64,000 bases of DNA from Oscillospiraceae bacterium. Lineage in GTDB: Bacteria > Bacillota > Clostridia > Oscillospirales > Oscillospiraceae. Location of the stretch: NCBI GenBank assembly GCA_017619535.1, contig JAFZSD010000004.1, positions 1 through 64,000 on the forward strand, in the 5' to 3' direction. Position numbers and translations under genes: made by a program. Under the pieces are notes generated by a model. The model saw nothing but the letters and a program-made list of their open reading frames with translations. It did no database searches and was not told where the DNA came from. Position 1 is the first letter of the stretch. The number at the start of each line of letters is the position of its first letter. Of this stretch, positions 1 to 63,265 are shown piece after piece.

Positions 1-2497
1 CCATATCCAGGAACAGAGTGATGACGGCCGCCTCGTTATAAACGTTGAAAACGGACCTGGAGATCATCGGAAACTCATTTTCCGCAGACGGCGAACGCAC
101 GGTCATCACCGCGCGCTGCATGTCGACCGCGCTCACGAAATAATCCCTGTGCGGCGTGGCAAAGCCGCAGCCGGGGCAGGTGAACTTCCCGATGTGGCGG
201 TAATTCCTGTATTCGTACTCGGGTCTCGAGCTGCAGTTCGGGCAGGCGGCGAAATCGCTGACGACGTTCGGGCCGGGATGCGTGTGCAGATCCGCCGCTC
301 CGTAATAAATGCGTCTGTTCTTGTCGCCGATCCGTCTGCATAACGGATCGTCGGCGTTCAAGATCACGACCGATCCTGGCGACTCTTCAGCCGCGAGGAC
401 CAGCCGGCCCTCGACGTATTCCGGCGTCGCGTTGCGGAGCATGGAGTCTCGGGCGAGGTTGCTCACGACGATGTAATCCGGCTTCAGCTTGGGCACGTTT
501 ATCGGGGAAATGATCTCGTCGAGCTCGATCACCGTGGCGTCCACCGTGGGCCTGTTGAATATGTCCACGGATTCCAGAAGAGTGCGCGCGTTGCCGGCGT
601 GGTGGTTCGCTCCCCAGTCGCTGTAGCTTACGGTCATGCCGCGCTGTCTGAGAACGTCCGCGACCATGCTGGATATCGTAGTCTTGCCGTTGGTGCCGAG
701 GACGACTATCGTGAGCCCGGGCTTTGAGACATATTTAAGGAAATCGCTGCAGAGGAGCATGGACGCCATTCCGGGCTTGTCGTCCTGCCTGCGGCCGGTC
801 TTCATATAAACGGCAAGGAGCAGTTTTCCGGCCCAGAGCGCCGGGAAGAACATGATCTTTCCGATTATCCCGCGTATATGGAAACGGTCAAGCACATGAT
901 CCAGCGCCGGCCGTCCGAACACTCTCTCCGCCGTCCCCGTGAAGTAGATCAAGGGACCGTATACGATCATGCCGACTGCGGCGTACACGATCAGCTGGAC
1001 GACGAGCAGAAGGCCGCGCGTCCGCGTCGCCGGCCAGAGCGCCCGCAGGGCAAATACGACCGCGAACATGACGGCCGTCGCCACTATTATCCTGACGAGA
1101 TTCCTGAGCAGCGGCGCCGCGCTGCAGCCGTGGCTGCGCTTCAGCGATACCGCCTGCATCGCCACGGTCACCGCCTGACCTATGATGCTGGCGGCAGCCG
1201 CGCCGAGATAGGCGGGGATCCCGATCCGCGAGAACAGATATATGAGCGGCAGATCGAGCGCCGCGTTGAGAACTATTCCGGTGAACGTGCAGACGCATAC
1301 CGCCTTTCCGCGACCCACGCTCTGCATCGTGGTGTTCATGACCGTGGATACTCCGCCGACGACATTGACGACGACCAGCAGCGCGAGGATGCCGGCGCCG
1401 TATTCGCTGGCGCCGTAAAACAGCCGGTACAGCGGCTCGGCAAACAGGATCATCCCGGCGGCCAACGGCACGGATATGAGCAGAAGGACGCCGAGCGCCT
1501 GATTCAGGCGGTCGTTCACGGCCCTGCGGTCCTCGCCCGCGTTGCTCTCGGCCATGAAAGGCGCGATGCTGCTGACGATGCCTATAGGCAGCGCGGAGAT
1601 TATCATGCATATCCTCGGAGCCCAGGTTGATTCGACGCTGGCGATGACCTGTGTCTCCGTATCCGCGAATCCCAGCCTGTGGAGCCCTACGAGTATGAGC
1701 TTCATGTCTACCACACTGTAGATGCTCACCGTAAGGGATACGATAATGATCGGGATGCTTATGGATATGAGCTTGCTTACTATACGCCGCATCGGCGTAT
1801 CGTCACCCTCGGGATCTTCAAAGGACCGGATCTCCGCTTTAAGGATCCTGTTCTTCTGACTGATATAAATGAGCGCGGCGAGCGCCCCCAGTACCGTTCC
1901 GGAGAAAGCTGTGTCGACGCCGGCCTCTACGCTCAGGCCCATAAGCTTTACGGCGACGAACGCGCCGGCCAGCGCGATGATTATGCGCACCAGCTGTTCG
2001 ATGACCTGGCTCTGCGAAGATACCGCGACGTATTTATATCCCTGGAGCAGGCCGCGGCGCACGCTCATGAACGGCACGATCAGCATGCATAGGGATATTA
2101 TGCGGATGCCTCTGGAGATGGTCTCCGGCGCAACGCCGTCGGTCATATCCTTGAGGATATATCCGGCCAGACCGTTCGCGAAGATCTGCATGACCGCAAA
2201 GGAAATAACGGAAAGGCCGATGATTATCCGCAGAGCCGCTGAATACGCCCGCTTCTCGCTGCGGTACATGCCCCGAGTATGATACTCGCTGATGACTATG
2301 CTAACCGCAACGGGTATCCCGCACGTGGATATGTCCAGGAACAGGGCGTAGATATTGTATACGCACGAGTATATTACTCCGCCCTCTTCGCCTATTATGT
2401 TGTAAAAGGGGATGCTGTACAGTACGCCCAGTATCTTCGTTATGACGATCGCGGCGTAGGCCGCGAACATCCCCCGGATAAAACTGTCTCTCTTCAT
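1..2497 (-). CDS. MurJ/YtgP-type lipid II flippase fused to MurT amidoligase (partial)
   Basis: One uninterrupted frame of at least 832 codons from ATG 2497 to the left edge; I read every codon and found no stop. Residues 1 to about 535 are a polytopic PST/MATE-type flippase whose text (for example RIISLCMLIVPFMSV and QVIEQLVRI) resembles YtgP/MurJ, which flips lipid II across the membrane. Without a stop or frame change it runs into a Mur-ligase: P-loop GTNGKTT at residues 601-607 and a four-cysteine zinc ribbon at C752, C755, C774, C777, as in MurT. MurT with GatD amidates the D-Glu of lipid II on the cytosolic side. The Mur part could restart at Met549 (ATG 853), but its Shine-Dalgarno is poor and the flippase frame would still read through. 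The MurT C-terminal domain and any gatD lie beyond the edge. RBS AGGA precedes ATG 2497. Confidence 0.85.
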   Translation of the reverse strand, partial: MKRDSFIRGMFAAYAAIVITKILGVLYSIPFYNIIGEEGGVIYSCVYNIYALFLDISTCGIPVAVSIVISEYHTRGMYRSEKRAYSAALRIIIGLSVISFAVMQIFANGLAGYILKDMTDGVAPETISRGIRIISLCMLIVPFMSVRRGLLQGYKYVAVSSQSQVIEQLVRIIIALAGAFVAVKLMGLSVEAGVDTAFSGTVLGALAALIYISQKNRILKAEIRSFEDPEGDDTPMRRIVSKLISISIPIIIVSLTVSIYSVVDMKLILVGLHRLGFADTETQVIASVESTWAPRICMIISALPIGIVSSIAPFMAESNAGEDRRAVNDRLNQALGVLLLISVPLAAGMILFAEPLYRLFYGASEYGAGILALLVVVNVVGGVSTVMNTTMQSVGRGKAVCVCTFTGIVLNAALDLPLIYLFSRIGIPAYLGAAAASIIGQAVTVAMQAVSLKRSHGCSAAPLLRNLVRIIVATAVMFAVVFALRALWPATRTRGLLLVVQLIVYAAVGMIVYGPLIYFTGTAERVFGRPALDHVLDRFHIRGIIGKIMFFPALWAGKLLLAVYMKTGRRQDDKPGMASMLLCSDFLKYVSKPGLTIVVLGTNGKTTISSMVADVLRQRGMTVSYSDWGANHHAGNARTLLESVDIFNRPTVDATVIELDEIISPINVPKLKPDYIVVSNLARDSMLRNATPEYVEGRLVLAAEESPGSVVILNADDPLCRRIGDKNRRIYYGAADLHTHPGPNVVSDFAACPNCSSRPEYEYRNYRHIGKFTCPGCGFATPHRDYFVSAVDMQRAVMTVRSPSAENEFPMISRSVFNVYNEAAVITLFLDM

Positions 2498-2766: not shown

Positions 2767-5544
2767 ATGTTAAAACGAATGATAACTAAAGTCTTCGGTA
2801 CGCACAGCGAACGCGAGCTGAAGAGCATAAATCCGATCGTCGACAAGATCGAGGCCCTCGGTCCCGAGTACAGCGCCATGACCGACGAGGAGCTCCGGGC
2901 AAAGACGGGCGAATTCAAGTCCCGTCTCGCCGCCGGTGAGACCCTTGACGATATCCTGCCGGAGGCGTTCGCGGTCGTGCGCGAAGCCGCGGACCGCGTT
3001 CTCGGCCTCAGACCGTACCGCGTTCAGCTCATCGGCGGCATCGTGCTCCACCAGGGCCGTATCGCCGAGATGAAGACCGGCGAAGGCAAGACGCTCGTCG
3101 CCGTTCTCCCGACCTACCTCAACGCTCTCGCCGGAGAGGGCGTCCACATCGTCACGGTCAACGACTACCTTGCCAAGCGCGACAGCGAGTGGATGGGCAA
3201 GGTCCACCGTTTTCTCGGCCTGTCCGTCGGCCTTATCATCCACGGCCTGGACAATGACCAGAGGCGCGAGTCCTACGCGGCCGACATCACCTACGGCACC
3301 AACAACGAGCTCGGCTTCGATTATCTGCGTGACAACATGGCTCTCTACCGCGACCAGATGGTCCAGCGCGGCCACGCCTTCGCCATCGTGGACGAGGTCG
3401 ACTCGATCCTCATAGACGAGGCAAGGACCCCTCTCATCATCTCCGGCATGGGGGACAAGTCCACCGAGCTGTACGGACAGGTCAACGGCTTCGTCGAAGG
3501 ACTTAAGAAAAAAGTATACGCCAGCATAGACGAGAAGGCGGAGGACGACGAAACGCTCGACGCCGACTATGTGGTCGACGAGAAAGCGCGCTCCGCGACG
3601 CTGACCGCCCGCGGCATAGCAAAGGCCGAGCAGTTCTTCGGGATAGAGAACCTGTCCGATCTGGAGAACTCGACCCTTTCCCATCACATCAACCAGGCGC
3701 TGAAGGCGCACGGCACCATGCACCGCGACATCGACTACGTCGTAAAGGACGGTCAGGTGCTGATCGTCGACGAATTCACCGGCCGCATCATGTACGGCCG
3801 CCGCTATTCCGAAGGCCTTCACCAGGCCATCGAGGCCAAGGAGCACGTCGTCGTCGAGCGCGAATCCAAGACCCAGGCCACCATCACCTTCCAGAACTAC
3901 TTCCGCCTCTATAAGAAACTCTCCGGCATGACCGGTACTGCTCTTACCGAAGAGGCGGAGTTCGCCTCCATCTACAACCTCGATATAATCGAGATACCCA
4001 CGAACAAGCCCGTCATCAGGGTCGACGACCCCGACGTCGTATTCAAGAACGACAACGGCAAGAACCGCGCCATAATCGAACAGATCAAGGAATGCAACGG
4101 ACGCGGGCAGCCAGTCCTCGTCGGTACCGTCTCGATCGAGAAGAGCGAATATCTGTCCTCGCTCCTCAAACGGCAGGGGATAAAACACAACGTCCTCAAC
4201 GCGAAGCACCATGAAAAAGAGGCGGAGATCGTCGCGCAGGCCGGAAAATTCGGTGCCGTGACGATAGCGACGAACATGGCCGGCCGAGGAACGGATATCA
4301 TGCTGGGCGGCAACCCGGAGTTCATGGCCCGCGACGATCTCAAAAAGGCCGGCATCACTGACGAGATCATCAGCGAAGCGACCGGTTTCGCCGATACGGA
4401 CGACGAAGAGATCCTGGACGCACGCCGCATGTACCACGACGCTCTCGAGCGATACAAGGCCGTTACCTCCGAAGAGGCAGAGCGCGTTAGGGCAGCCGGC
4501 GGACTCTTCATCGTCGGCACCGAACGTCATGAGTCGCGCCGCATCGATAACCAGCTCCGCGGACGAAGCGGCCGTCAGGGAGACCCCGGCGAGACCCGTT
4601 TCTTCATCGCCATGACGGACGACATAATGCGCCTGTTCGGAACGGAGCGCGTGATGCATCTCATGGAGACTCTCAACGTCGACGAGGACACGCCTCTTGA
4701 CAACAAGATGCTCTCCAACGCGATCGAACAGTCTCAGATGCGGGTCGAGAGCCGCAACTTCCAGACGAGAAAACGCGTACTCGAGTACGACGACGTCATG
4801 AATACCCAGCGAAACATCATCTACGACGAGCGCCGCAAGGTCCTCGACGGTGAGAATATAAGCGGAAACATCCGCGGCATGATAACCGACGTCATCGAGC
4901 GGGCGGTGAACTCCGGTTTCACCGGCTCGGGCAACCTTACCGGCCGCGCCGAACTCGACGAGATCGTCGAACCCTTCACCAAGATGTTCCTGCGCCGCGG
5001 CGAGATCACGATGCCCCCGGAAGGCTTCTCGAAAGAAGAACTCACAGAGACCCTCAAGGAAAAGGCCTTCGCCTTCTATGACGCCAAGGAGGCCGCTCTC
5101 GGTTTCCTGCCCGACGGCACCACGCCTCTCATGCGCGAACTCGAGCGCCTCATCCTTCTCCGCGTCGTCGACGAATACTGGATGGATCACATCGACGCGA
5201 TGAGCGATCTCCGCCAGAGCGTTGGTCTCCGCGCCTATGCCCAGACCAACCCGGTCGACGAGTACAAACGCGACGGTTTCGATATGTTCGAGGCCATGGT
5301 CAACGGGATCCGCGAGGAGGTCGTACGCCGTCTGTTCGTCGTACGCGTAAAGAAAGAGGAGAACCTGGAGCGCAAGAGCGTCACCTCATACTCCGCCACA
5401 ACGGCCGGCGGCGACGGCACGATAAGACGCGAGCCCGTCAAGAAGGCCAAAAAGCCCGGCCGCAACGACCCGTGCCCGTGCGGAAAGCTCCGTCCCAACG
5501 GCCTGCCGATGAAGTACAAGGACTGCTGCGGCAGAAACGGCTGA
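2767..5544 (+). CDS. secA: Preprotein translocase ATPase SecA
   Basis: 925 residues, usual size for SecA, the motor that drives unfolded preproteins through SecYEG. Visible: Walker A MKTGEGKT near residue 102, the DEAD-like VDEVDSI near 209, the motif [13 protein letters not shown] of the second ATPase fold, and a C-terminal SEC-C zinc motif (CPCGK...KDCC) that binds SecB or ribosomes in other bacteria. The start ATG has a modest AAAGG box. pgeF follows after 7 bases, so the two are probably co-transcribed. This is a single-copy housekeeping gene and looks intact. Confidence 0.98.
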
Positions 5545-38116: not shown

Positions 38117-38857
38117 TCATCTGACGCTTAGCGGAACTTCCTCGCCGTTGAGCCGCCTCGCGATGTTCATAAAGCACCTGGCGGCTCCTCCCGCCGCGCC
38201 AAGAAGGAACGGTGTCTCGCCGTTTGCGGATATCTGCACCGCGGGATCGTCCCTGACCACTCCGAGCAGCCTGACACCGACGTTATCGATGATATCGTCG
38301 GCCGTCATGCCGCAGCGGCGCATTCGGCGGGGCTTCACGCGGTTTATTATGAGCCTGATCTCGCCCGCTCCGCTCTCCCGCAGCAGTTCCGCGGCCCGCT
38401 GCGCGTTCCTGACGCAGGCTGCGTCCGGGGTCGTGACGATCACGGCGGTGTCGGCGCCGCAGGACGCGAGCCTGAAACCGGCTCCGATGCCCGCAGGGGA
38501 ATCCAGCAGACAGAAGTCGAATCCTTTTCTCGCTTCCGCCAGAAGCTCTCTCATCGCTTCGCAGTCTTCGTCCGACAGCGTCAGATCCGTCGGCGCGGAG
38601 AGGAAAAAGAGCCCGGGTATCGAAGGATGCTCGGAACAGGCTTCGGCAAGCGGTCTGCCTCCGCGCAGGACGTCGGACAGGTCATATACGGCGTAGTCGG
38701 TCATGCCCAGGGTTATATCCAGATTCCGCATGCCTGCGTCGCAGTCGATGCAGAGCGTCTTTGCGCCCAGTACGGCCAGACAGGAGGAAACGGCTCCGAC
38801 GGTCGTGGTCTTGCCTGTGCCGCCCTTGCCGGAGGTGACCGTTATGATCTTTCCCAT
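38117..38857 (-). CDS. minD: MinD-like division-site ATPase
   Basis: 246 residues. Deviant Walker A SGKGGTGKTT at the N-terminus, then CIDCDAGMRNLD and LLDSPAGIG, all typical of MinD. MinD normally recruits the FtsZ inhibitor MinC to the membrane. Here neither minC nor minE flanks it, and the C-terminus (RRLNGEEVPLSVR) is not a clear amphipathic membrane-targeting helix like that of E. coli or B. subtilis MinD. It may be a diverged MinD or a related partitioning ATPase. It has its own promoter. Confidence 0.85.
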   Translation of the reverse strand: MGKIITVTSGKGGTGKTTTVGAVSSCLAVLGAKTLCIDCDAGMRNLDITLGMTDYAVYDLSDVLRGGRPLAEACSEHPSIPGLFFLSAPTDLTLSDEDCEAMRELLAEARKGFDFCLLDSPAGIGAGFRLASCGADTAVIVTTPDAACVRNAQRAAELLRESGAGEIRLIINRVKPRRMRRCGMTADDIIDNVGVRLLGVVRDDPAVQISANGETPFLLGAAGGAARCFMNIARRLNGEEVPLSVR

Positions 38858-38913
38858 TGACTACTCCCCCGTCTCCGCCGGAACGCCGCGGGACGTCCCG
38901 TATTTTGAAACTT

Positions 38914-38942
38914 GATTATATACCGCAGGACCGCCTTTTTCA
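38914..38942 (-). promoter_or_regulatory. Promoter upstream of minD
   Basis: Minus strand TTGAAA (38937-38942) and TATAAT (38914-38919) with a 17-base spacer, immediately after the mrdA stop codon. It would serve minD, mgsA and possibly hisS-aspS. Confidence 0.65.
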
Positions 38943-38950
38943 AGAAGCGG

Positions 38951-40987
38951 TCAGGGTATGAGCACGCCGTCGGATATGACGGCAACCTTGACTTCTTTTC
39001 CGAAATAGTAGTCGAGGATCTCCTTGGCTACGCCCATTATGTTGGAACCTGAACCGCCCTTCTCGACGACTACGGAGATCGCGATCTCGGGGTTTTCCGC
39101 CGGCGCGTAGCACACGAAGACGCCGTTGTTCGTGGCGGTCGCGTCGCTCTGGACCGTGCCTGTCTTGGCCGCTATGGGTATGTCGTAGTATCCGAACATC
39201 TCCCCCGCGGTGCCGTCCGGCTCCACGACGGCCTTCATGCCGTCCTGCAGGTATGAGATATACTCCCGGTCCTTGCCGGTAAACTGGTATTTTACTTCCG
39301 GCTCTTTTTCATACACTACGGACGTATAATCCGAACTCTTGACCGAATGGAGCAGGGTCACCCCGTAGCGCGTTCCGCCGGTCGCTATCGTGGCGGCGTA
39401 ATTGGCCAGCTGGACGGGCGTGAACAGATTGTAGCTCTGTCCTATGGCGGCCATCACCGTATCCGCAGCGTACCACTCCTCGCCCAGTTCCTCTTCCTTG
39501 AATTCCTCGCAGGCCACGATGCCCTCGATATCGCCGGTCTCTATGCCGGTGTGCTGACCGAAACCAAAGTCTCTCGCCGCCGTCGCGATATTGTTTATGC
39601 CGGTGTGATCGCCCAACCAGTAGAAGAACACGTTGCAGGAATGCTTCAGCGCCCCGACAACGTCGAGTTCGCCGTGCCCGCCGGGATAGATCCAGCAGAC
39701 GGGTTCAAAATCGTAGGCGGCATAGGCGTCGTAATAGCCGGGATCGTATACGGTGGAATACCGCTCGATCGTACCGGCCCGGAGGCCGGCCAGCGCCGTC
39801 GTCATCTTGAACGTCGAACCCGGGTTGTAGTAGTTGTCTGTCGCCCTGTTCAGAACGGGGTTCAGCGGGTCGTTGATGAGCTTCGCGTAATTGTCCAGCA
39901 GCTTTGACGGATCATATGACGGATAGGAGGCGACTGCCAGCGCCTCGCTGGTGCCGACCTCCAGGACGACGACCGCTCCGCCGGTGACATAGTCTCCCGC
40001 CCTGTTTGAGTTCAGAGTGTCTATGGTCTTCTTGAGCGCGTCCTCCGCCGCTGCCTGTATGCCGAGATCTACGGAAAGGAACACGTTGTCGCCGGGCTCC
40101 GGTTCGGTTATCATCTCGGTGCTTATGACCGCGCCTTCTTCGCTCCGCATGACGCGCCGCAGGCCTTCCTCCCCGTGCAGATACTCTTCGAAGGCCGCCT
40201 CGGCCCCCGCCTGTCCTACGTCCGCGTCCATCGGGTAGCCCAGCGCTTCATATTTTTCCGCCTGCTCGGGCGTTATCTTGCCCAGATATCCGAGCAGGTG
40301 TGCGGCGCGGTCGGTGCAGAATACGCGTTCCGACGACCTCAGCACGGTCACGCCAGGATATCCCTTTTCCCCGAGGATCGAAACGAATTCCGTCCCTACG
40401 TTTTCGGCAAATACATACGGGTCGACGTTGACGATGACCTGCATCTCCAGCTCATAACGTACACCTATGATCCGGCGCGCGTCGTTCAGCGGGGTCGTGT
40501 AGTCGAGACCGTAGTGATCCTTGAGCCATACGATGAGATCTGACGCCGGGATATCGCTGTCAAGATGGAAGAACTCGATGTATTTGTCGAGCAGATACCG
40601 CTGACGTTCGGACATGTCCTGAACATATGAAAAAGGAGCCGTCATCGTTACGGGGAAATTGTCCCTGTAGCTGACGCCGTGCTCATCGGCGAGCCGGACG
40701 ATCTCCAGGATAACGTCGTTCCTTCCCTCTATCTCCAGCAGCGCGTCGCGGGAGAGCGTCACGTTATAGGAAACGCTGGTCGTCACAAGAGGCGTACCGT
40801 TCCTGTCGAGTATGTCACCGCGGCCAGCCTCGACGATCTCTCTCGTGGTAGTGGCGTTTGCCAGCACCTCGTCGACCTCTCCGCCCCGCATCTGCAGGGA
40901 GTACAGCCTCGCGACGTATATTATGAGCAACACCGCCGTGATGCCGATTATCACAAATACTCTTGTTGAATTGGTTAACCTGTTCAT
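38951..40987 (-). CDS. mrdA: Penicillin-binding protein 2 (elongasome transpeptidase)
   Basis: 678 residues. One N-terminal membrane helix, a dimerisation/pedestal region and a transpeptidase domain with STFK near residue 392, SCN near 449 and KTGT near 607. This class B enzyme cross-links side-wall peptidoglycan together with RodA and the Mre proteins. It lies 36 bases after mreD. The glycosyltransferase partner gene rodA is not in the window. Confidence 0.96.
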   Translation of the reverse strand: MNRLTNSTRVFVIIGITAVLLIIYVARLYSLQMRGGEVDEVLANATTTREIVEAGRGDILDRNGTPLVTTSVSYNVTLSRDALLEIEGRNDVILEIVRLADEHGVSYRDNFPVTMTAPFSYVQDMSERQRYLLDKYIEFFHLDSDIPASDLIVWLKDHYGLDYTTPLNDARRIIGVRYELEMQVIVNVDPYVFAENVGTEFVSILGEKGYPGVTVLRSSERVFCTDRAAHLLGYLGKITPEQAEKYEALGYPMDADVGQAGAEAAFEEYLHGEEGLRRVMRSEEGAVISTEMITEPEPGDNVFLSVDLGIQAAAEDALKKTIDTLNSNRAGDYVTGGAVVVLEVGTSEALAVASYPSYDPSKLLDNYAKLINDPLNPVLNRATDNYYNPGSTFKMTTALAGLRAGTIERYSTVYDPGYYDAYAAYDFEPVCWIYPGGHGELDVVGALKHSCNVFFYWLGDHTGINNIATAARDFGFGQHTGIETGDIEGIVACEEFKEEELGEEWYAADTVMAAIGQSYNLFTPVQLANYAATIATGGTRYGVTLLHSVKSSDYTSVVYEKEPEVKYQFTGKDREYISYLQDGMKAVVEPDGTAGEMFGYYDIPIAAKTGTVQSDATATNNGVFVCYAPAENPEIAISVVVEKGGSGSNIMGVAKEILDYYFGKEVKVAVISDGVLIP

Positions 40988-47272: not shown

Positions 47273-47528
47273 GCTCCCGCCGATTCTGCATATTCATTCC
47301 GTCCTGCATATCAAATAATTCCCATGAAAACGTATCATCCGTGCGACAAATACTGATTTTTCATGGGTTTTGCACATTCTCCACAGAGTTATCAACAAGC
47401 GTTATGTCAACGCGGATCTGTCAGTATTCATTTTCTGAGCGAATACCGGGCCGGCGACGCTGTCCAGTCCGGGACGGGCCATGCCCCTGTTCCCGAGACG
47501 GGTATGCCGAACTGAAAGGATGCGCCAA
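47273..47528 (+). other. Intergenic region with a 10-base inverted repeat
   Basis: 256 bases without a gene. CCCATGAAAA (47321-47330) and TTTTCATGGG (47358-47367) can pair across a 27-base loop; only a short T run follows, so this is a weak terminator or an operator. A TTATCAACA, one base from the DnaA-box consensus, lies near 47390. No clear promoter for the flippase gene. Confidence 0.5.
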
Positions 47529-49148
47529 ATGGAAAACAGGAGCCAGAACTACATAAGGGGCGCGGCGATACTTGCCGCGACCGTGGCGGTCACCAAGGTG
47601 ATCGGCGCGATCTACAAGATCCCTCTTTACAATCTCCTCGGCGACGAGGGGACGGCTCATTTCCAGGTCACCTACACCATCTACAATCTTCTTCTGACGA
47701 TCGCGACCGCGGGCGTGCCCGTAGCTCTCTCGCGGCTGATCTCCTCCGCGCATTCGGTGGGGTGCGACCGGCAGGGCACCAGGATACACAAGGCCGCGAT
47801 GCCTACGTTCATCCTGATCGGTCTCATTTGCGGCGGAGCCATGTTCATATGGGCGCAGGAGCTCGCCGATCTCATCGGCGACCACGAGATCGCGGACGGC
47901 ATACGCTGCCTCGCCCCGGCGGTGTTTTTCTACTGCATCATCGCGGTCTACCGCGGTTATTCGCAGGGACACGGCGATATGATCCCGACGGCCATATCGC
48001 AGATCCTCGAAGTACTGTGCAAACTGTTCTTCGGCCTTGCGATAGCGTGGATCCTGCTCAGGCGCGGATACGGCACGCCTACGGTCGCCGCCGGCGCTTT
48101 CGTAGGCATAACGATCGGCCTGATGCTGTCGGTGCCTGCGATGGCCGTCTACAAACAGAGGGCCGATAAGCGCAATGCGTACCGTCTCGACGGCGAAGAT
48201 CCGTCCGTCCTCAGCTACAGGGAGACTCTGGCGCAGATATTCCGCATCAGCATACCGATAACGCTCGGCGCATCGGTCCTGAACATAATTACCCTTGTCG
48301 ACACGAAACTCGTGCTCCTGCGGCTGCAGAACGGCGCGGGTTACGACTATATGACGGCAAAGGTCCTCTACGGCGCGTATTCCAAGGCTCTGACCCTCTT
48401 CAATCTTCCTGCGGCGTTCATCGTTCCGGTGACGGTGAGCGTAGTGCCCGCCATCGCCGCCGCTCTGGCCAGGAAGGAAAACGACGGGGCCCGCGATGTC
48501 ATGACCTCCGCGATGAAGGTGACCAATCTCATCGGGCTCCCCGCGGGGGCGGGTCTCCTGATCCTGTCATACCCGATCTACAGCGGCCTCTACTGGGGCA
48601 GCAACGAAAACGGGCCGGCGCTCCTGGCGCTTCTCGGTATCGCGGCATATTTCGTGTGCATGCAGCTCATCACCACCGCCATACTCCAGGCGAGCGGTTT
48701 CGAAAAGCTGTCGATGCTCACGCTTCCGCTGGGCGGTATCGTGAAGATAGTCGCCATATGGTTCCTGGTCGGCAATCCTTCCATCGGCATCTACGGTTCT
48801 CCTTTAAGCACGATCATCTGCTATGTCTGCATCTCGGCCTTCAACCTCTGGTTCATCGTCCGCCGTCAGCCCGTCCGGCCGGATCTTCGGAAGGCTTTTG
48901 TCAGACCGTTCATCTGTACGGTGATCATGGCCGTCGCCGCCTTTGCGGTATACTGGCTCGGCATGCAGCTGCTGGGTGACTGGTTCTCGGCCTCCAGGAT
49001 GCACATGCTCGTCATAATGTGCGTTTCCGTCATCGTCGCGGTCGCGGTATACGCCGTTATGATAATCGTCCTCGGCGGCGTCACAAGAGAAGACCTGCAG
49101 CTGCTCCCCAAGGGCGAAAAGATAGCCGATTTCCTGAAAATCAAGTAA
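47529..49148 (+). CDS. SpoVB/MurJ-like polysaccharide flippase
   Basis: 539 residues from ATG 47529, with GAAAGGA 8 bases before it; two upstream in-frame ATGs have worse spacing. About 14 membrane helices of the MATE/PST type. The KIPLYNLLGDEG and YRGYSQGHGDMIPTAISQILE segments place it near the SpoVB/YabM/YtgP group that moves lipid-linked wall precursors. It sits before mazG as yabM does in B. subtilis. It is a paralogue of the flippase half of the fusion protein at the left edge, so the cell has at least two. Confidence 0.9.
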   Translation: MENRSQNYIRGAAILAATVAVTKVIGAIYKIPLYNLLGDEGTAHFQVTYTIYNLLLTIATAGVPVALSRLISSAHSVGCDRQGTRIHKAAMPTFILIGLICGGAMFIWAQELADLIGDHEIADGIRCLAPAVFFYCIIAVYRGYSQGHGDMIPTAISQILEVLCKLFFGLAIAWILLRRGYGTPTVAAGAFVGITIGLMLSVPAMAVYKQRADKRNAYRLDGEDPSVLSYRETLAQIFRISIPITLGASVLNIITLVDTKLVLLRLQNGAGYDYMTAKVLYGAYSKALTLFNLPAAFIVPVTVSVVPAIAAALARKENDGARDVMTSAMKVTNLIGLPAGAGLLILSYPIYSGLYWGSNENGPALLALLGIAAYFVCMQLITTAILQASGFEKLSMLTLPLGGIVKIVAIWFLVGNPSIGIYGSPLSTIICYVCISAFNLWFIVRRQPVRPDLRKAFVRPFICTVIMAVAAFAVYWLGMQLLGDWFSASRMHMLVIMCVSVIVAVAVYAVMIIVLGGVTREDLQLLPKGEKIADFLKIK

Positions 49149-57910: not shown

Positions 57911-58939
57911 ATGCTTTTCGGACGTGATCTCGCCATCGACCTCGGCACCTCCTCGGTGCTGATATCCACAAAGAACAGGGGGATCATCCTTCAGGAGCCC
58001 TCTGTCGTGGCAATCGACAAGAACACAGGCCGCCTCCTTAGTATCGGTATGGCGGCGCAGCGCATGCTCGGACGGACCCCCGGCAACATAGTCGCCATAC
58101 GCCCGATGCAGGGCGGCGTCATTTCAGATTACGGTACGACCGAACGCATGCTCCGCGAGATGGTCAAAAAGGTGAGCTCCTTCAGTTTCCTTAAGCCCCG
58201 CATCATAATCTCCGTGCCTTCAGGCATCACGGAGGTCGAAGAGCGCGCCGTCGTCGACGCCGGCATTTCGGCCGGCGCCAGAAAGGTCTACCTGCTCGAA
58301 TCTCCTCTCGCCGCGGCTCTGGGCGCGGGTCTCGATATAACCAATCCGGACGGGCATATGGTCGTCGATATAGGCGGCGGCACGACCGACGCGGCCGTGC
58401 TCTCGCTTTCCGGTGTGGTCCAGTCTGATTCCGTCAAGATGGCGGGCGAAGCGTTCAGCGACGCGATCGTCAGATATATAAGGAAAAAGCACAACGTCCT
58501 GATCGGCGACACCACGGCGGAGGAGCTCAAGCTCAGTATCGGCTGCGTTTTCCCGCGGCCTGAGACCGTTTCCGTAGACGTTAAGGGCCGCTGCCTCATG
58601 ACCGGCCTTCCCCGGGTCGTTTCGATCAGCTCTACGGAGATGCTCGAGGCTTTCGAAGAGGTCTCGGAGCGCATCCTCGAGATGATACTCCGCGTTCTGG
58701 AAGAAACTCCGCCCGAGCTTGTCGCGGACATCTCCAAAAACGGCATAGTCCTCACCGGCGGCGGCAGCCAGCTCTGGGGTTTCGACCGCCTTATTGAGAA
58801 CCGCACCAACATTCCGACCACCGTCGCCGACGACCCGGAGATGTGCGTCGCCTACGGCCTTGGAAAGGCGACCGCCTGGCTGGACGACATGCAGGAAGGC
58901 ACCATAAACATAGCCCGCAGACGTCATCTCAAGGGCTGA
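57911..58939 (+). CDS. mreB: MreB/Mbl actin-like rod-shape protein
   Basis: 342 residues. Bacterial actin that guides side-wall synthesis. Phosphate-1 loop AIDLGTSSVL, adenosine loops DIGGGTTDAAVLS and TGGGSQLWGF, and the RIIISVPSGITEVEERAV stretch are in place. The mature length is the usual one. It is separated from mreC-mreD by 15 kb and lies before dnaA. It may be an Mbl-type copy, with the classical mreB elsewhere. AGGTG ribosome site. Confidence 0.95.
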   Translation: MLFGRDLAIDLGTSSVLISTKNRGIILQEPSVVAIDKNTGRLLSIGMAAQRMLGRTPGNIVAIRPMQGGVISDYGTTERMLREMVKKVSSFSFLKPRIIISVPSGITEVEERAVVDAGISAGARKVYLLESPLAAALGAGLDITNPDGHMVVDIGGGTTDAAVLSLSGVVQSDSVKMAGEAFSDAIVRYIRKKHNVLIGDTTAEELKLSIGCVFPRPETVSVDVKGRCLMTGLPRVVSISSTEMLEAFEEVSERILEMILRVLEETPPELVADISKNGIVLTGGGSQLWGFDRLIENRTNIPTTVADDPEMCVAYGLGKATAWLDDMQEGTINIARRRHLKG

Positions 58940-58974
58940 CGGAAGCGTTAACCGCAAATAATGATCGGCAGTCT

Positions 58975-59007
58975 GCCGCCCGGTTTCCCGCCGGGCGGCT
59001 TTTCTTT
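58975..59007 (+). terminator. Terminator after mreB
   Basis: Perfect 9-pair stem GCCGCCCGG / CCGGGCGGC with a 7-base loop, followed by TTTTCTTTT. Confidence 0.9.
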
Positions 59008-59147
59008 TACGCAAACGTCCGTCATACGTATCCCGCTAGCCCGGAGACAGGCCTGTAGAGTACATGTTCCCGCCCGGTTTCTGCGGCGCTTGTACGGCGT
59101 GTTCTGATATAATTCTTATTTTATATATGTATAATGCGTCAAAATCC

Positions 59148-59176
59148 TTGCACAGAGTGCAAAATTGTGGTAAAAT
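59148..59176 (+). promoter_or_regulatory. dnaA promoter with a palindromic operator over the -35
   Basis: TTGCAC (59148-59153), 17 bases, then TAAAAT (59171-59176) with an extended TGG in front. The -35 hexamer is half of a perfect palindrome TTGCAC-AGA-GTGCAA (59148-59162), a good site for a repressor. Two further TATAAT elements at 59108-59113 and 59130-59135 could be extra start points. Confidence 0.65.
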
Positions 59177-59230
59177 CATCATGTATTATTCTGCGCGGAA
59201 ATCCACATTTTTCCGAAAGGTTTTGACGAT

Positions 59231-60529
59231 ATGAATTCTGCTGCCGACGTATGGAAAAAAGTACTCGAACTGCTCAGCCGGGATCTTACCGAGACCGCAA
59301 TAAACACCTGGTTCTCAGAGTGCCGTGCAGTCGATATAGACGATAAAAAGATTGTTATCTGCGTCTCCTCCGATTTCAAGAAGAACGTGATAGAGGGCCG
59401 CTATCTTCCGCTCATCAAGAACGCGCTGAAGGAGATCTTTTCCGGAGATATGGACATACTCATACTGGGCGAGAACGGCGAAGCGGACTACAGCCACAGA
59501 GAAGGAGATTCCCCCGTGACCGAGGAATACACTTTCGAGAGGTTCGTCGTGGGAAATACCAACCGCTACGCCCACGCCGCGGCGAAAGCGGTCGCCGGCG
59601 GCAACGTCCAGAATTACAACCCGCTCTTCATCTACGGCGACTCCGGACTCGGAAAGACCCACCTTCTCCACGCGATCCGTATCGAGATGAAACGCCGCGA
59701 TCCCGACTGCAACGTCGTGCTGGTCAAGGGAGAAGAATTCACAAACGAGCTTATTTCCGCCCTGCAGATAGGCAAGAACATAGCCTTCCGCGAGAAATAC
59801 CGCAGTGCCGACGCGCTCCTTATAGATGATATCCAGTTCATCGCGGGAAAACCCTCCACACAGGAGGAGTTCTTCCATACGTTCAATACGCTGTACGACG
59901 CCGGCCGTGAGATCGTCCTTACTTCTGACCGTCCGCCCCAGGAGATGTCCCTTCTCGAAGACAGGCTGCGCACCCGCTTCGAGTCCGGCGTCATGACGGA
60001 GATAAACGCTCCGGACTATGAGACCCGTATGGCCATCATAAGAAACAAGGCGAATCAGCTGGGAATGGTGCTGAGCAACGAGGTCGCGAACTACATAGCG
60101 GAGAACCTGACTTTCAACGTCCATCAGCTGGAGGGTGCCGTAAAGATGATTAAGGCCCGGAGCGAGATAATCGGCAGCGATATAGACATACCGCTCGCCG
60201 CAGATGCCATAAAGGATCTTGTCCGCGAAGGCTATACTCCGAATCCCGACAGGATAATCGAAGAGACGGCAAAATACTTTAACCTCACTACGGATGATCT
60301 CAAAGGACAGAGCCGCACGAAAAACATGGCTCTTGCGCGCCAGGTGGCCATGTATGTCATACGGCGCCTAACGAATCTTACTCTCGACGACATCGGCGAG
60401 ATCTTCGACAGGCGCGACCATTCGACGGTTCTTTCATCCATACGCAAGATAGAAAACAGCATCCAGACGTCGAACGAATTCTCAAAAGCCGTAAAGGATA
60501 TAATCGCGAACGTCAATTCCGGAAAGTAA
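59231..60529 (+). CDS. dnaA: Chromosomal replication initiator DnaA
   Basis: 432 residues. Domain I (VWKKVLELLSRDLTETAINTWF), a short domain II, AAA+ domain III with Walker A GDSGLGKTH near residue 136 and LLIDDIQF, and DNA-binding domain IV ending in FDRRDHSTVLSSI. Opens the origin by binding DnaA boxes. RBS GAAAGG precedes the ATG. The gene is intact. Confidence 0.98.
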   Translation: MNSAADVWKKVLELLSRDLTETAINTWFSECRAVDIDDKKIVICVSSDFKKNVIEGRYLPLIKNALKEIFSGDMDILILGENGEADYSHREGDSPVTEEYTFERFVVGNTNRYAHAAAKAVAGGNVQNYNPLFIYGDSGLGKTHLLHAIRIEMKRRDPDCNVVLVKGEEFTNELISALQIGKNIAFREKYRSADALLIDDIQFIAGKPSTQEEFFHTFNTLYDAGREIVLTSDRPPQEMSLLEDRLRTRFESGVMTEINAPDYETRMAIIRNKANQLGMVLSNEVANYIAENLTFNVHQLEGAVKMIKARSEIIGSDIDIPLAADAIKDLVREGYTPNPDRIIEETAKYFNLTTDDLKGQSRTKNMALARQVAMYVIRRLTNLTLDDIGEIFDRRDHSTVLSSIRKIENSIQTSNEFSKAVKDIIANVNSGK

Positions 60530-60773
60530 GGATTTCAACATCGCGTGGTTGATCTTCTGTTGATTTCTGTTTAAAACCCCGCTTTTGTCCGCCGGCGTCA
60601 GCAGACGTCAGAAAACATCCACTTTTTCTGTCCGGTTCGTCAACAATCTGTCAAGACATAAAACCGTTCTCTTTTAAGGCTTTCAGCCCCTTTTCAACAA
60701 AAAAACGTACTACTTCTATTATTCCTAAATATAAAAAATATATCTTTCTATCTGAAAAGAAAGGGTGTTGTCA
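60530..60773 (+). other. dnaA-dnaN intergenic region, possible part of the origin
   Basis: 244 bases without a gene. The last 70 are very AT-rich (about 60695-60755), like an unwinding element. Diverged DnaA-box-like nonamers occur (TTTTCAACA at 60691, TCGTCAACA at 60637, TGTTGATTT at 60558 on the other strand), but no perfect TTATCCACA is present, so an origin here is only possible. Confidence 0.4.
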
Positions 60774-61892
60774 ATGAAGTTCTCGTGTGAAAAATATCTG
60801 CTTCAGTCAGCTGTAGCCACAGCATCCCGGGCAGCTGCGGCAAAGAGTTCAGTACCCGCGCTGGAAGGTCTTCTGGTAGAGGCCGGGACAGATACGGTAA
60901 GAGTCACTGGTTACGATCTCAAAACGGGTATAACTACAACGATACCCGCGGACGTGGCTTCCAGCGGATATCTGGTGCTGAATGCCCGTCTTCTGGGAGA
61001 TATCGTCAGAAAACTGCCAGACGAGATCCTTACCGTAGAAGTGGATGACAACTATATGACCCGGATACGCAGCGGCATGAGCGATTTCGAGATAGTCGGC
61101 ACGTCTGCCGAGGATTATCCGGAACTTCCTTCCGTGGAGTCCGTAAACAACGTGGATATACCGGGGAAAATACTCCGCAGCATGATATCCCAGACATGCT
61201 TTGCCGTCAGCGACAATGAAGCGCGGCCCATACACACGGGTGCTCTCTTTGAGATAGAGAACGGAAAGCTTACCATGGTCGCCGTCGACGGTTACAGGCT
61301 CGCTCTTCGCCGCGAAGAGATCGAGGGCGCTGAAGGGACGGAGTGCAGTTTCGTCGTTCCCGGTTCCGCTCTCTCCGAGGTCGAAAAGATAGCGCCCGAT
61401 TCGGATGACAAGGTAAGGATAACCCTCGGAGCGAAGCACGTCGTATTCACGACGGAGGACACTACGCTTATATCGCGCCGTCTCGAGGGCGAATTTCTTA
61501 ATTACAAGAAATCCATACCAACAGCCGGAAAGTAGACGGTCGCCGTATCCGCATCGGAACTGACCTCGTCCGTTGAAAGAGTCTCCCTGATAATAAGCGA
61601 CAGACTCAAGAGCCCCGTGCGCTGCACCTTCGGCGACGGCGTTATCCGGTTACTTACCGTGACGCCTCTCGGACGCGCCAGCGACGAATGCGCGGCAGAA
61701 GGAAACGCCGAGGATCTGGAGATAGGATTCAACAACCGCTATCTGCTCGACGCGCTCAAAGCGGTACCGGCGGACAAGGTCTTCATAAAGCTGATGAGCG
61801 GCATTTCGCCTTGCCTCATCGTTCCCGCGGACGAAGGAGACAGTTTCCTTTATATGATCCTTCCGGTAAGACTCAAGGCGAACGAAGGCTGA
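60774..61892 (+). pseudogene. dnaN: DNA polymerase III beta clamp interrupted by an in-frame TAG
   Basis: From ATG 60774 (AAAGGG 8 bases upstream) the frame runs 253 codons to TAG at 61533-61535 and goes on in the same frame to TGA at 61892, giving 371 residues plus the stop, normal for the sliding clamp. The first two clamp domains precede the stop and domain three (SASELTSSVERVSLIISDRLK in part, ending MILPVRL) follows it. The end keeps the MPMRL-type motif as LPVRL. The codon lies in the AGK-stop-TV turn, a variable position where AAG, GAG or CAG would be one base away. Loss of domain three would kill the clamp, so error or readthrough is more likely than decay. Confidence 0.9.
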
Positions 61893-61895
61893 CGA

Positions 61896-62156
61896 ATGAA
61901 AGTACGGCTCAAAAAACTGTCCGGCGACCGGCCGGAAGCTGAAAAAGTGGCCATATCCACCGATTTCATAAAACTCGACGCCTTTCTCAAGTACTGCTGC
62001 GCCGCGGAGACCGGCGGCATAGCAAAGATCATGATCCAGGACGGAGACGTCAGGGTCAACGGCGAGACATGCCTGACAAGAGGAAAAAAGCTCCGGCCCG
62101 GAGACCGGGTGGAGGCCGGCGGAAAACTGTACGAACTGACCGCGGAGGAAAAATGA
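61896..62156 (+). CDS. yaaA: S4-domain RNA-binding protein YaaA/RlbA type
   Basis: 86 residues. The S4 core FIKLDAFLKYCCAAETGG and IMIQDGDVRVNGE is followed by RGKKLRPGD. It always lies between dnaN and recF in Firmicutes and is thought to act in ribosome assembly. It overlaps recF by 4 bases (ATGA). Confidence 0.94.
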   Translation: MKVRLKKLSGDRPEAEKVAISTDFIKLDAFLKYCCAAETGGIAKIMIQDGDVRVNGETCLTRGKKLRPGDRVEAGGKLYELTAEEK

Positions 62157-63265
62157 CCGTAAACGACCTCTCGCTCGAGGGTTTTCGAAGCTATATTAAC
62201 GCCGGGGCGCTGTTCTGCCCTGAAACGAACATCATAACAGGCATCAACGCGCAGGGAAAAACGAATCTCGTAGAAGCCATTTACTACCTGACCTGCGGCC
62301 GGTCGTTCAGAGCGCGGACGGACGGCGAGATCATCAATTTCGGCTGCAATGAAGCGGCGATAAAAGCCGGCATAACCAGCGGCGGCCGAGAACAGACGGT
62401 CGAAGCGCACCTGTACCGGGGCCGGAGGAAGACGATACTCATAAACGGCGTAAAACAGAAAACCGCCGCCTCCCTTTCCGGCAGGCTCACCGCGGTCCTT
62501 TTCTGCCCGGACGACCTTTCGATGATAAGGGCCGGCTCAGCGGCGAGAAGACGGGTGATGGATCAGTGTCTGTGCCAGATCAGACCGCGCTACGCGGAAG
62601 CGCTCACGGAGTACGGGAGGATATACGACCAGAAATCCCGCATACTTAAGGACTGGCGGGAGAAACCGTCGCTCCTGGAAGCTCTGGATGAATACAACGA
62701 CCGCATGGCGGAATACGGAGCCGTCCTCATATACTACAGGGCCCGCCTCGCGGAAGCGCTTTCTGAGCGGGCGGCGGCGATACACAGGGATTTTTCAGGC
62801 GGCGCGGAAGAACTCTCGCTGAGTTACAGGACTGTTAAGACGGACGCCGATCCGCTCACGCTGAAGCCGGAGGAGATAATGCTGCCGCTCAGGGAGCATC
62901 AGGCTTCCCATAAACGCGCGGAGCTGGAGTCCGGAACCTGCCTGTCCGGCGCCCACAAGGACGATCTGGAGGTAGAGATAAACGGCAGACCGGCAAAGAG
63001 TTTCGCATCTCAGGGCCAGACAAGGACCGCCGCGCTGTCCGTAAAGATGGCGGAGAGGGAGATACTGGCCGCAGATACCGGAGAAAGCCCCGTTCTGCTG
63101 CTCGACGACGTTCTTTCGGAACTCGACGCAGGAAGACAGGATTTCGTCCTTAACCGCGTAGGCGGAGGACAGGTGTTCATTACCTGCTGTGAGGACGACC
63201 GTATCTCACAGAAGACCGGCGGACGTATCTTCAGGATCACCGACGGGGAGATAAGACCCGTCTGA
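62153..63265 (+). CDS. recF: DNA replication and repair protein RecF
   Basis: 370 residues from ATG 62153, which overlaps the yaaA stop; a longer reading from 62069 gives Arg-rich shadow sequence. SMC-like ATPase with Walker A GINAQGKTNLVEA, signature SGAHKDDLEVEI and Walker B LLLDDVLSELD. Loads RecA at gaps with RecO and RecR. Confidence 0.97.
   Translation: MTVNDLSLEGFRSYINAGALFCPETNIITGINAQGKTNLVEAIYYLTCGRSFRARTDGEIINFGCNEAAIKAGITSGGREQTVEAHLYRGRRKTILINGVKQKTAASLSGRLTAVLFCPDDLSMIRAGSAARRRVMDQCLCQIRPRYAEALTEYGRIYDQKSRILKDWREKPSLLEALDEYNDRMAEYGAVLIYYRARLAEALSERAAAIHRDFSGGAEELSLSYRTVKTDADPLTLKPEEIMLPLREHQASHKRAELESGTCLSGAHKDDLEVEINGRPAKSFASQGQTRTAALSVKMAEREILAADTGESPVLLLDDVLSELDAGRQDFVLNRVGGGQVFITCCEDDRISQKTGGRIFRITDGEIRPV

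Follow-up and report, generated by a model that had tools for sequence, protein, structure and literature searches.

The locus reported here has its closest described counterparts in the MurT/GatD enzymes and in the flippases MurJ and SpoVB/YtgP. One such flippase, M. tuberculosis MviN/MurJ, has a C-terminal pseudokinase domain. For MurT/GatD, mutational studies have identified residues required for the use of glutamine. The GatD substitutions C94A, H189A and R128A leave no glutaminase activity (PMC5871853), and the variant MurT-D349N is nearly inactive (PMC6113224). S. aureus GatD-C94G lost glutamine-dependent amidation and kept NH3-dependent amidation at pH 8.5, for which the GatD protein was still needed; free ammonia worked in S. 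aureus only at this pH (PMC3266927). The structural papers found the catalytic residues to be conserved among the homologues aligned there (PMC5871853, PMC6113224, PMC3266927). Our literature searches for fusions of MurJ or SpoVB to MurT, for GatD pseudoenzymes, and for MurT-GatD pairs lacking the catalytic cysteine returned no description. As far as the literature was searched, this agrees with an earlier note on the DNA studied here, which knew of no described MurJ-MurT fusion.

The fusion gene and its two halves

We analyzed a window of 64,000 nucleotides from an Oscillospiraceae bacterium. The earlier note, made from the letters of this window, had described a lipid II flippase fused in frame to MurT, with no stop codon between the ATG at 2497 and base 2 of the minus strand. 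Translation confirmed that this frame is open over 832 codons (Table 1). The source genome (G000) is a draft of 89 contigs and is 79% complete. Base 1 of the window is also base 1 of contig C36, which stops at residue 832 of the fusion, and the gene is thus truncated by the assembly and not by a stop codon. A second contig of this genome, C16, opens at residue 846 with the remainder of MurT, which matches residues 846-1004 of the sister protein at 93% identity. About 13 codons (~39 bases) are therefore absent between the two contigs. A gatD-like gene follows directly on C16. The earlier note had suggested looking for gatD just left of the window, and the gene was indeed located beyond the fusion both here and in the sister genome (G001). 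The divergent arrangement of the fusion and a secA-like gene is likewise found in both genomes.

Table 1. Features of the fusion locus and the paralogous flippase in the window.
Feature	Position	Strand	Description
Flippase-MurT fusion ORF	2..2497	-	832 of about 1004 residues; C-terminus off contig edge
Flippase half, residues 1-540	878..2497	-	MOP superfamily, SpoVB/YtgP/MurJ-like (profiles and structural model)
Junction, residues 528-552	842..916	-	Complete flippase C-terminus VLDRFHIR straight into MurT N-terminal helix
MurT half, residues 545-832, truncated	2..865	-	Profile and structure matches
MurT P-loop GTNGKTT, residues 601-607	677..697	-	Sequence
MurT zinc ribbon, cysteines 752, 755, 774 and 777	167..244	-	Sequence
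secA-like gene	2767..5544	+	Divergent neighbor of fusion; named by sequence resemblance
Second SpoVB-like flippase, paralogue of flippase half	47481-49148	+	191.8 bits to SpoVB

Elsewhere in the window, cell-shape and replication-origin genes were seen at 57911-63265 and 38117-40987 (MreB, DnaA, DnaN, RecF-like, a PBP transpeptidase, and MinD-like, the last named by resemblance). The dnaN gene (beta clamp; 60765-61892, plus strand) has one in-frame TAG at 61533-61535, between the central and C-terminal domains. This is probably an assembly error; it would otherwise be a surprising break in an essential gene.

Profile searches matched residues 6-511 of the flippase half to SpoVB (136.6 bits) and to the Polysacc_synt/MATE/MurJ families. 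SpoVB was the best NCBIfam match, and the half missed the NCBIfam equivalog cut-offs for both SpoVB (372 bits) and MurJ (44.7 vs. 236 bits). Nor did any sequence from ten related genomes that we searched pass the SpoVB cut-off. Hydropathy placed 14 membrane segments in the flippase part, followed by a hydrophobic MurT N-terminal helix; given the even number of segments and the MOP topology, MurT would lie on the cytoplasmic side. In VIA-align comparisons, E. coli MurJ (9ukv) aligned to the model over residues 5-532 (Z 29.1, rmsd 3.9), and MATE transporters matched the N-terminal half over a shorter stretch. The model of the flippase half shows the MOP fold including the extra C-terminal helix pair of the MurJ type. 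On these profile and model matches, we class it as a divergent MOP flippase of the SpoVB/YtgP type. In the flippase tree, a long branch (1.47 changes per site) leads to its clade, and the SpoVB-like paralogue of the same genome lies elsewhere. Besides the fused half, the source genome keeps further SpoVB-like flippases, one of them inside the window (Table 1). The earlier note was therefore right to liken the first ~535 residues to YtgP/MurJ, but its naming of them as "the lipid II flippase" went too far, since the equivalog cut-offs are missed and a SpoVB-like paralogue lies in the same window.

In the second half, the MurT profile matched residues 557-828 and Mur_ligase_M matched residues 601-733, while MurT_C scored 73.4 bits in protein P0002 against a Pfam cut-off of 25. 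The NCBIfam MurT equivalog score of 800 was reached neither by the truncated window protein (92.4 bits) nor by the standalone copy (194 bits), which belongs to a second MurT-GatD pair of the source genome. S. pyogenes MurT matched the C-terminal half of the model (VIA-align, Z 33). The P-loop and the four cysteines are where the earlier note had placed them, and the fused MurT retains Lys59, Thr60, the Mg-binding Glu108, and all four zinc cysteines. Asp349, which completes the GatD glutaminase triad, is replaced by Thr.

Conservation and origin of the fusion

Full fusions were found in five genomes from two genera (G000, G001, G381, G407, and G1004), answering the earlier note's suggestion that databases be searched for a single chain with MurJ and MurT parts. 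The only other genome of the source genus (G001; CAMZHU010000014.1, uncultured Clostridia bacterium) encodes an intact ORF of 1004 residues that is 93% identical to the window protein, with a secA-like gene upstream on the opposite strand and a gatD-like gene overlapping the fusion stop. When 400 genomes of the family were scanned, two further full fusions appeared at 65% identity in a second genus, and a scan of this second genus added a third at 63%. Fusions are thus present in 3 of its 23 genomes (63-65% identity over residues 1-1003), and none was found in the other 20. Among the sampled groups and the matches listed, no fusion outside the two genera was found in the 400-genome family scan, the order and class scans with MurT_C, or the phylum scan, and a separate contig scan matched only the sister genome. 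In the three fused species of the second genus, the fused MurT was the only MurT found (genomes 82-86% complete). Four other loci with long frames were rejected as fusions. At L077 and L087, the frame of a canonical murT reads through into upstream sequence, and at L054 and L058, the membrane protein encoded upstream is a separate one, cut off by a stop codon.

The two halves are joined without loss on either side. Alignment with unfused relatives showed that neither is shortened at the junction, the MurT helix beginning within ~5 residues of VLDRFHIR. In the AlphaFold2 model of the fusion (mean pLDDT 86.9), the join falls inside a high-confidence helix (residues 541-566). Three comparisons over 80 codons of the junction gave dN/dS values of 0.071, 0.187, and 0.185, equal to those of both halves, which indicates that the joint is translated and constrained. 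An assembly or sequencing artefact joining two genes might be suspected of a gene at a contig edge, and the earlier note had allowed that separate genes in relatives could expose such an error. The same flippase and murT are indeed unfused in two genomes (G331, G1024), yet the fusion is conserved in five separate genomes at 63-93% identity with purifying selection across the junction. The intact ORF in the sister genome and the fusions in a second genus exclude an assembly or frameshift error at 840-900 for practical purposes.

The unfused relatives bear instead on how the fusion arose. In G331, the flippase and murT genes are separated by a 20-base gap and gatD is next, and in G1024 the two genes are adjacent with 26 bases between the ends of the matches. 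These adjacent genes likely represent the precursor of the fusion. Two further genomes (G034, G208) have an orthologous flippase (52%) standing alone, and its C-terminal end coincides with the end of the fused flippase half. The flippase tree unites the five fused sequences in a single clade (100% SH-aLRT), with G034/G208 and G331/G1024 as sisters. The MurT tree likewise groups four fused sequences together (97%), next to which come G217 alone and then G331 with two others. These trees and gene orders fit a single fusion event in an accessory flippase-murT-gatD operon.

GatD partners lacking the glutaminase residues

Compared with S. aureus GatD, the partners of the fusion that were read (G000, G001, G381, G407) have Gly at Cys94 (ATGNS for TICGG) and Leu at His189. 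Taken together with the fused MurT, these natural proteins combine the C94G change with two more catalytic losses. The standalone pair of the source genome is altered likewise (Cys94 to Gly, His189 to Leu, and MurT Asp349 to Asn). The GatD fold is nevertheless kept in the partner model (pLDDT 95, TM 0.83 to 5n9m), and the glutamine-binding Arg128 corresponds to an Arg126 that is invariant in alignment A2. The gatD genes have dN/dS values of 0.04-0.16, so these degenerate genes are not decaying. A GATase_3 search of the source genome for a spare GatD gave only two strong matches in frames of CobB/CobQ size and HisH; the match on contig C18 was considered as a spare GatD and rejected, being HisH. 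With Cys94 and His189 missing from GatD and Asp349 missing from the fused MurT, the known glutaminase cannot operate. The earlier note had proposed a tethered MurT-GatD amidation. The in-frame fusion on which it built stands, and the implied glutamine-dependent chemistry is not supported; the loss could not be seen from the window because GatD is encoded outside it.

The altered partner is not peculiar to the fusion. We read 120 clostridial MurT-GatD pairs from their loci; relatives of the query are overrepresented among them, and the counts are not prevalences. Cys94 was present in 51 pairs, of which 50 also had His189 and all 51 had Asp349. The nucleophile was absent from the remaining 69, where position 94 is Gly (66), Ala (2), or Ser (1). 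Thr precedes this position in 63 of the 69 degenerate GatDs, Asn follows it in 62, and Gln at +4 is changed to Glu in 64, so that a conserved TGN(A/S)xE motif replaces the lost nucleophile in most of them. His189 is changed to Leu, Thr, Ile, Val, or another residue in all but two of the degenerate pairs, and Asp349 is retained in 11. No Cys or His conserved at 50% or more was found anywhere in the 69 degenerate GatDs. Arg128, which S. aureus GatD requires for glutaminase activity, is retained in 63 of 69, and MurT Lys59, Glu108, and the four zinc cysteines are retained in all readable sequences. Examples of degenerate GatD genes are at L001:1788-2606 and L002:472-1197.

Nearly all degenerate sequences are split from the canonical MurTs in the MurT tree by a branch with 98% support. 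Two pairs, L160 (G683:C41) and L163 (G784:C2), fall inside the canonical clade with the GatD Cys changed to Gly only and with His189 and Asp349 kept. By their tree position, these are separate, independent losses of the GatD cysteine; G683 carries a canonical pair besides L160. As judged from the loci read, the glutaminase-less GatD branch takes in more than the partners of the fusion. Many genes that carry the annotation lipid II isoglutaminyl synthase are thus unable to draw on glutamine by the established mechanism, and because the glutaminase residues are lost over a deep clostridial branch, cell-wall chemistry assigned from annotation may be wrong there.

Candidate reactions and comparison with known systems

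Our preferred reading, to which we give a probability of about one half, is that the fusion is a flippase-tethered ligase that would modify the D-Glu of lipid II with free ammonia or another amine. The product would be one membrane protein, in which a MOP flippase of 14 helices has both termini on the cytoplasmic side and bears the MurT ligase domain at its C-terminus. Its partner would be a GatD-like subunit, encoded separately by the next gene downstream. MurT, with ATP, would activate the alpha-carboxyl of the stem-peptide D-Glu on the lipid-linked peptidoglycan precursor, and an amine would then attack the activated carboxyl. With the Cys/His nucleophile absent from GatD and the third catalytic residue absent from MurT, this amine would not come from glutamine by the known route. 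Free ammonia would be the most likely donor, or possibly some other small amine; GatD would be needed for its structural role, and the tether would place the modified lipid II beside the flippase. The sequences show the fusion with its conservation and selection, the missing glutaminase residues, and the intact ATP and zinc sites, whereas we infer the lipid II substrate, the ammonia donor, the flippase activity, and the coupling of modification to export. Some points sit uneasily with this reading. Ammonia use in S. aureus was confined to pH 8.5, and an enzyme using it at neutral pH would have to possess a better ammonia site. The flippase half also falls below the MurJ and SpoVB equivalog cut-offs, which counts against the preferred reading and keeps the lipid substrate putative.

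The alternatives differ in the donor or in the lipid. The strongly conserved TGN(A/S)xE motif and the retention of Arg128 also weigh against the preferred reading, since they suggest that the former glutamine pocket may have kept a ligand, and a GatD with a purely structural role would have no use for one. Together with the purifying selection, this looks like a changed pocket rather than decay, and an altered MurT/GatD that adds another amine (an amino acid, or a diamine like putrescine or cadaverine, bound in that pocket) to the D-Glu alpha-carboxyl is the least improbable of the alternatives, although still unlikely. In Negativicutes, polyamines are known to be attached to the D-Glu alpha-carboxylate (PMC10628300). 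The bolder form of this idea, in which a whole clostridial MurT-GatD branch swapped its glutaminase for an amine pocket and attaches a non-ammonia amine to lipid II D-Glu, and two genera built that ligase into the exporting flippase, is about as unlikely.

It is distinctly unlikely that the substrate of the fused flippase is some other lipid-linked precursor, such as that of another envelope polymer, with the MurT half modifying a carboxyl on it. The long-branch flippase clade (1.47 changes per site) that stands apart from a retained SpoVB-like paralogue, and the scores below both equivalog cut-offs, would suit such a role. To our knowledge, however, zinc-ribbon MurT-type ligases act on peptidoglycan-type stem peptides, and the fused MurT is the sole MurT found in three fused species, as if it were doing the housekeeping job. 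The model of the earlier note, in which an ordinary MurT-GatD tethered to the flippase amidates with glutamine, is less probable still. The fusion, the gene order, and the retained ATP and zinc sites of MurT would all be expected of it, but GatD has neither Cys94 nor His189, the fused MurT has no Asp349, no conserved Cys or His is left to replace them, and the GATase_3 matches of the genome itself are confined to HisH and two frames of CobB/CobQ size.

Under the preferred reading of a flippase-tethered ligase, as under its non-ammonia variant, the glutaminase-less pair suggests a kind of cell-wall modification that has no published description. Both the amidation of lipid II and its flipping are targets of antibiotic research. 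That the two occur fused in nature suggests that modification and flipping gain from proximity, and the single polypeptide offers a system for measuring the coupling of modification to export.

Among known systems, SpoVB/YtgP (the Gram-positive MOP flippases) and MurJ share the 14-helix MOP fold with the fusion, E. coli MurJ aligning through residue 532; the fused flippase differs in its distinct clade apart from the same-genome SpoVB-like paralogue, its scores below the equivalog cut-offs, and its C-terminal ligase. M. tuberculosis MviN/MurJ also joins a MurJ-type flippase to an extra domain tied to the control of wall synthesis, but that domain is a pseudokinase, whereas here it is a precursor-modifying ligase by resemblance. 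Archaeal MurT-like ligases (PMC11915815) are likewise MurT relatives independent of a GatD glutaminase; they have no GatD at all, whereas the present locus retains, under selection, a GatD that lacks the catalytic residues. The MurT/GatD enzymes of S. aureus, S. pneumoniae, and M. tuberculosis share with this locus the MurT middle and C-terminal domains, the P-loop, Glu108, the four-Cys zinc ribbon, the gatD gene immediately downstream, the GatD fold, and Arg128. In contrast to them, MurT is here fused to a flippase and lacks Asp349, and GatD lacks Cys94 and His189. We class the pair of the fusion as a MurT-GatD relative on account of its fold, its gene order, and its ATP and zinc sites. We do not class it as a glutamine amidotransferase, because the catalytic residues that define such an enzyme were looked for and are missing.
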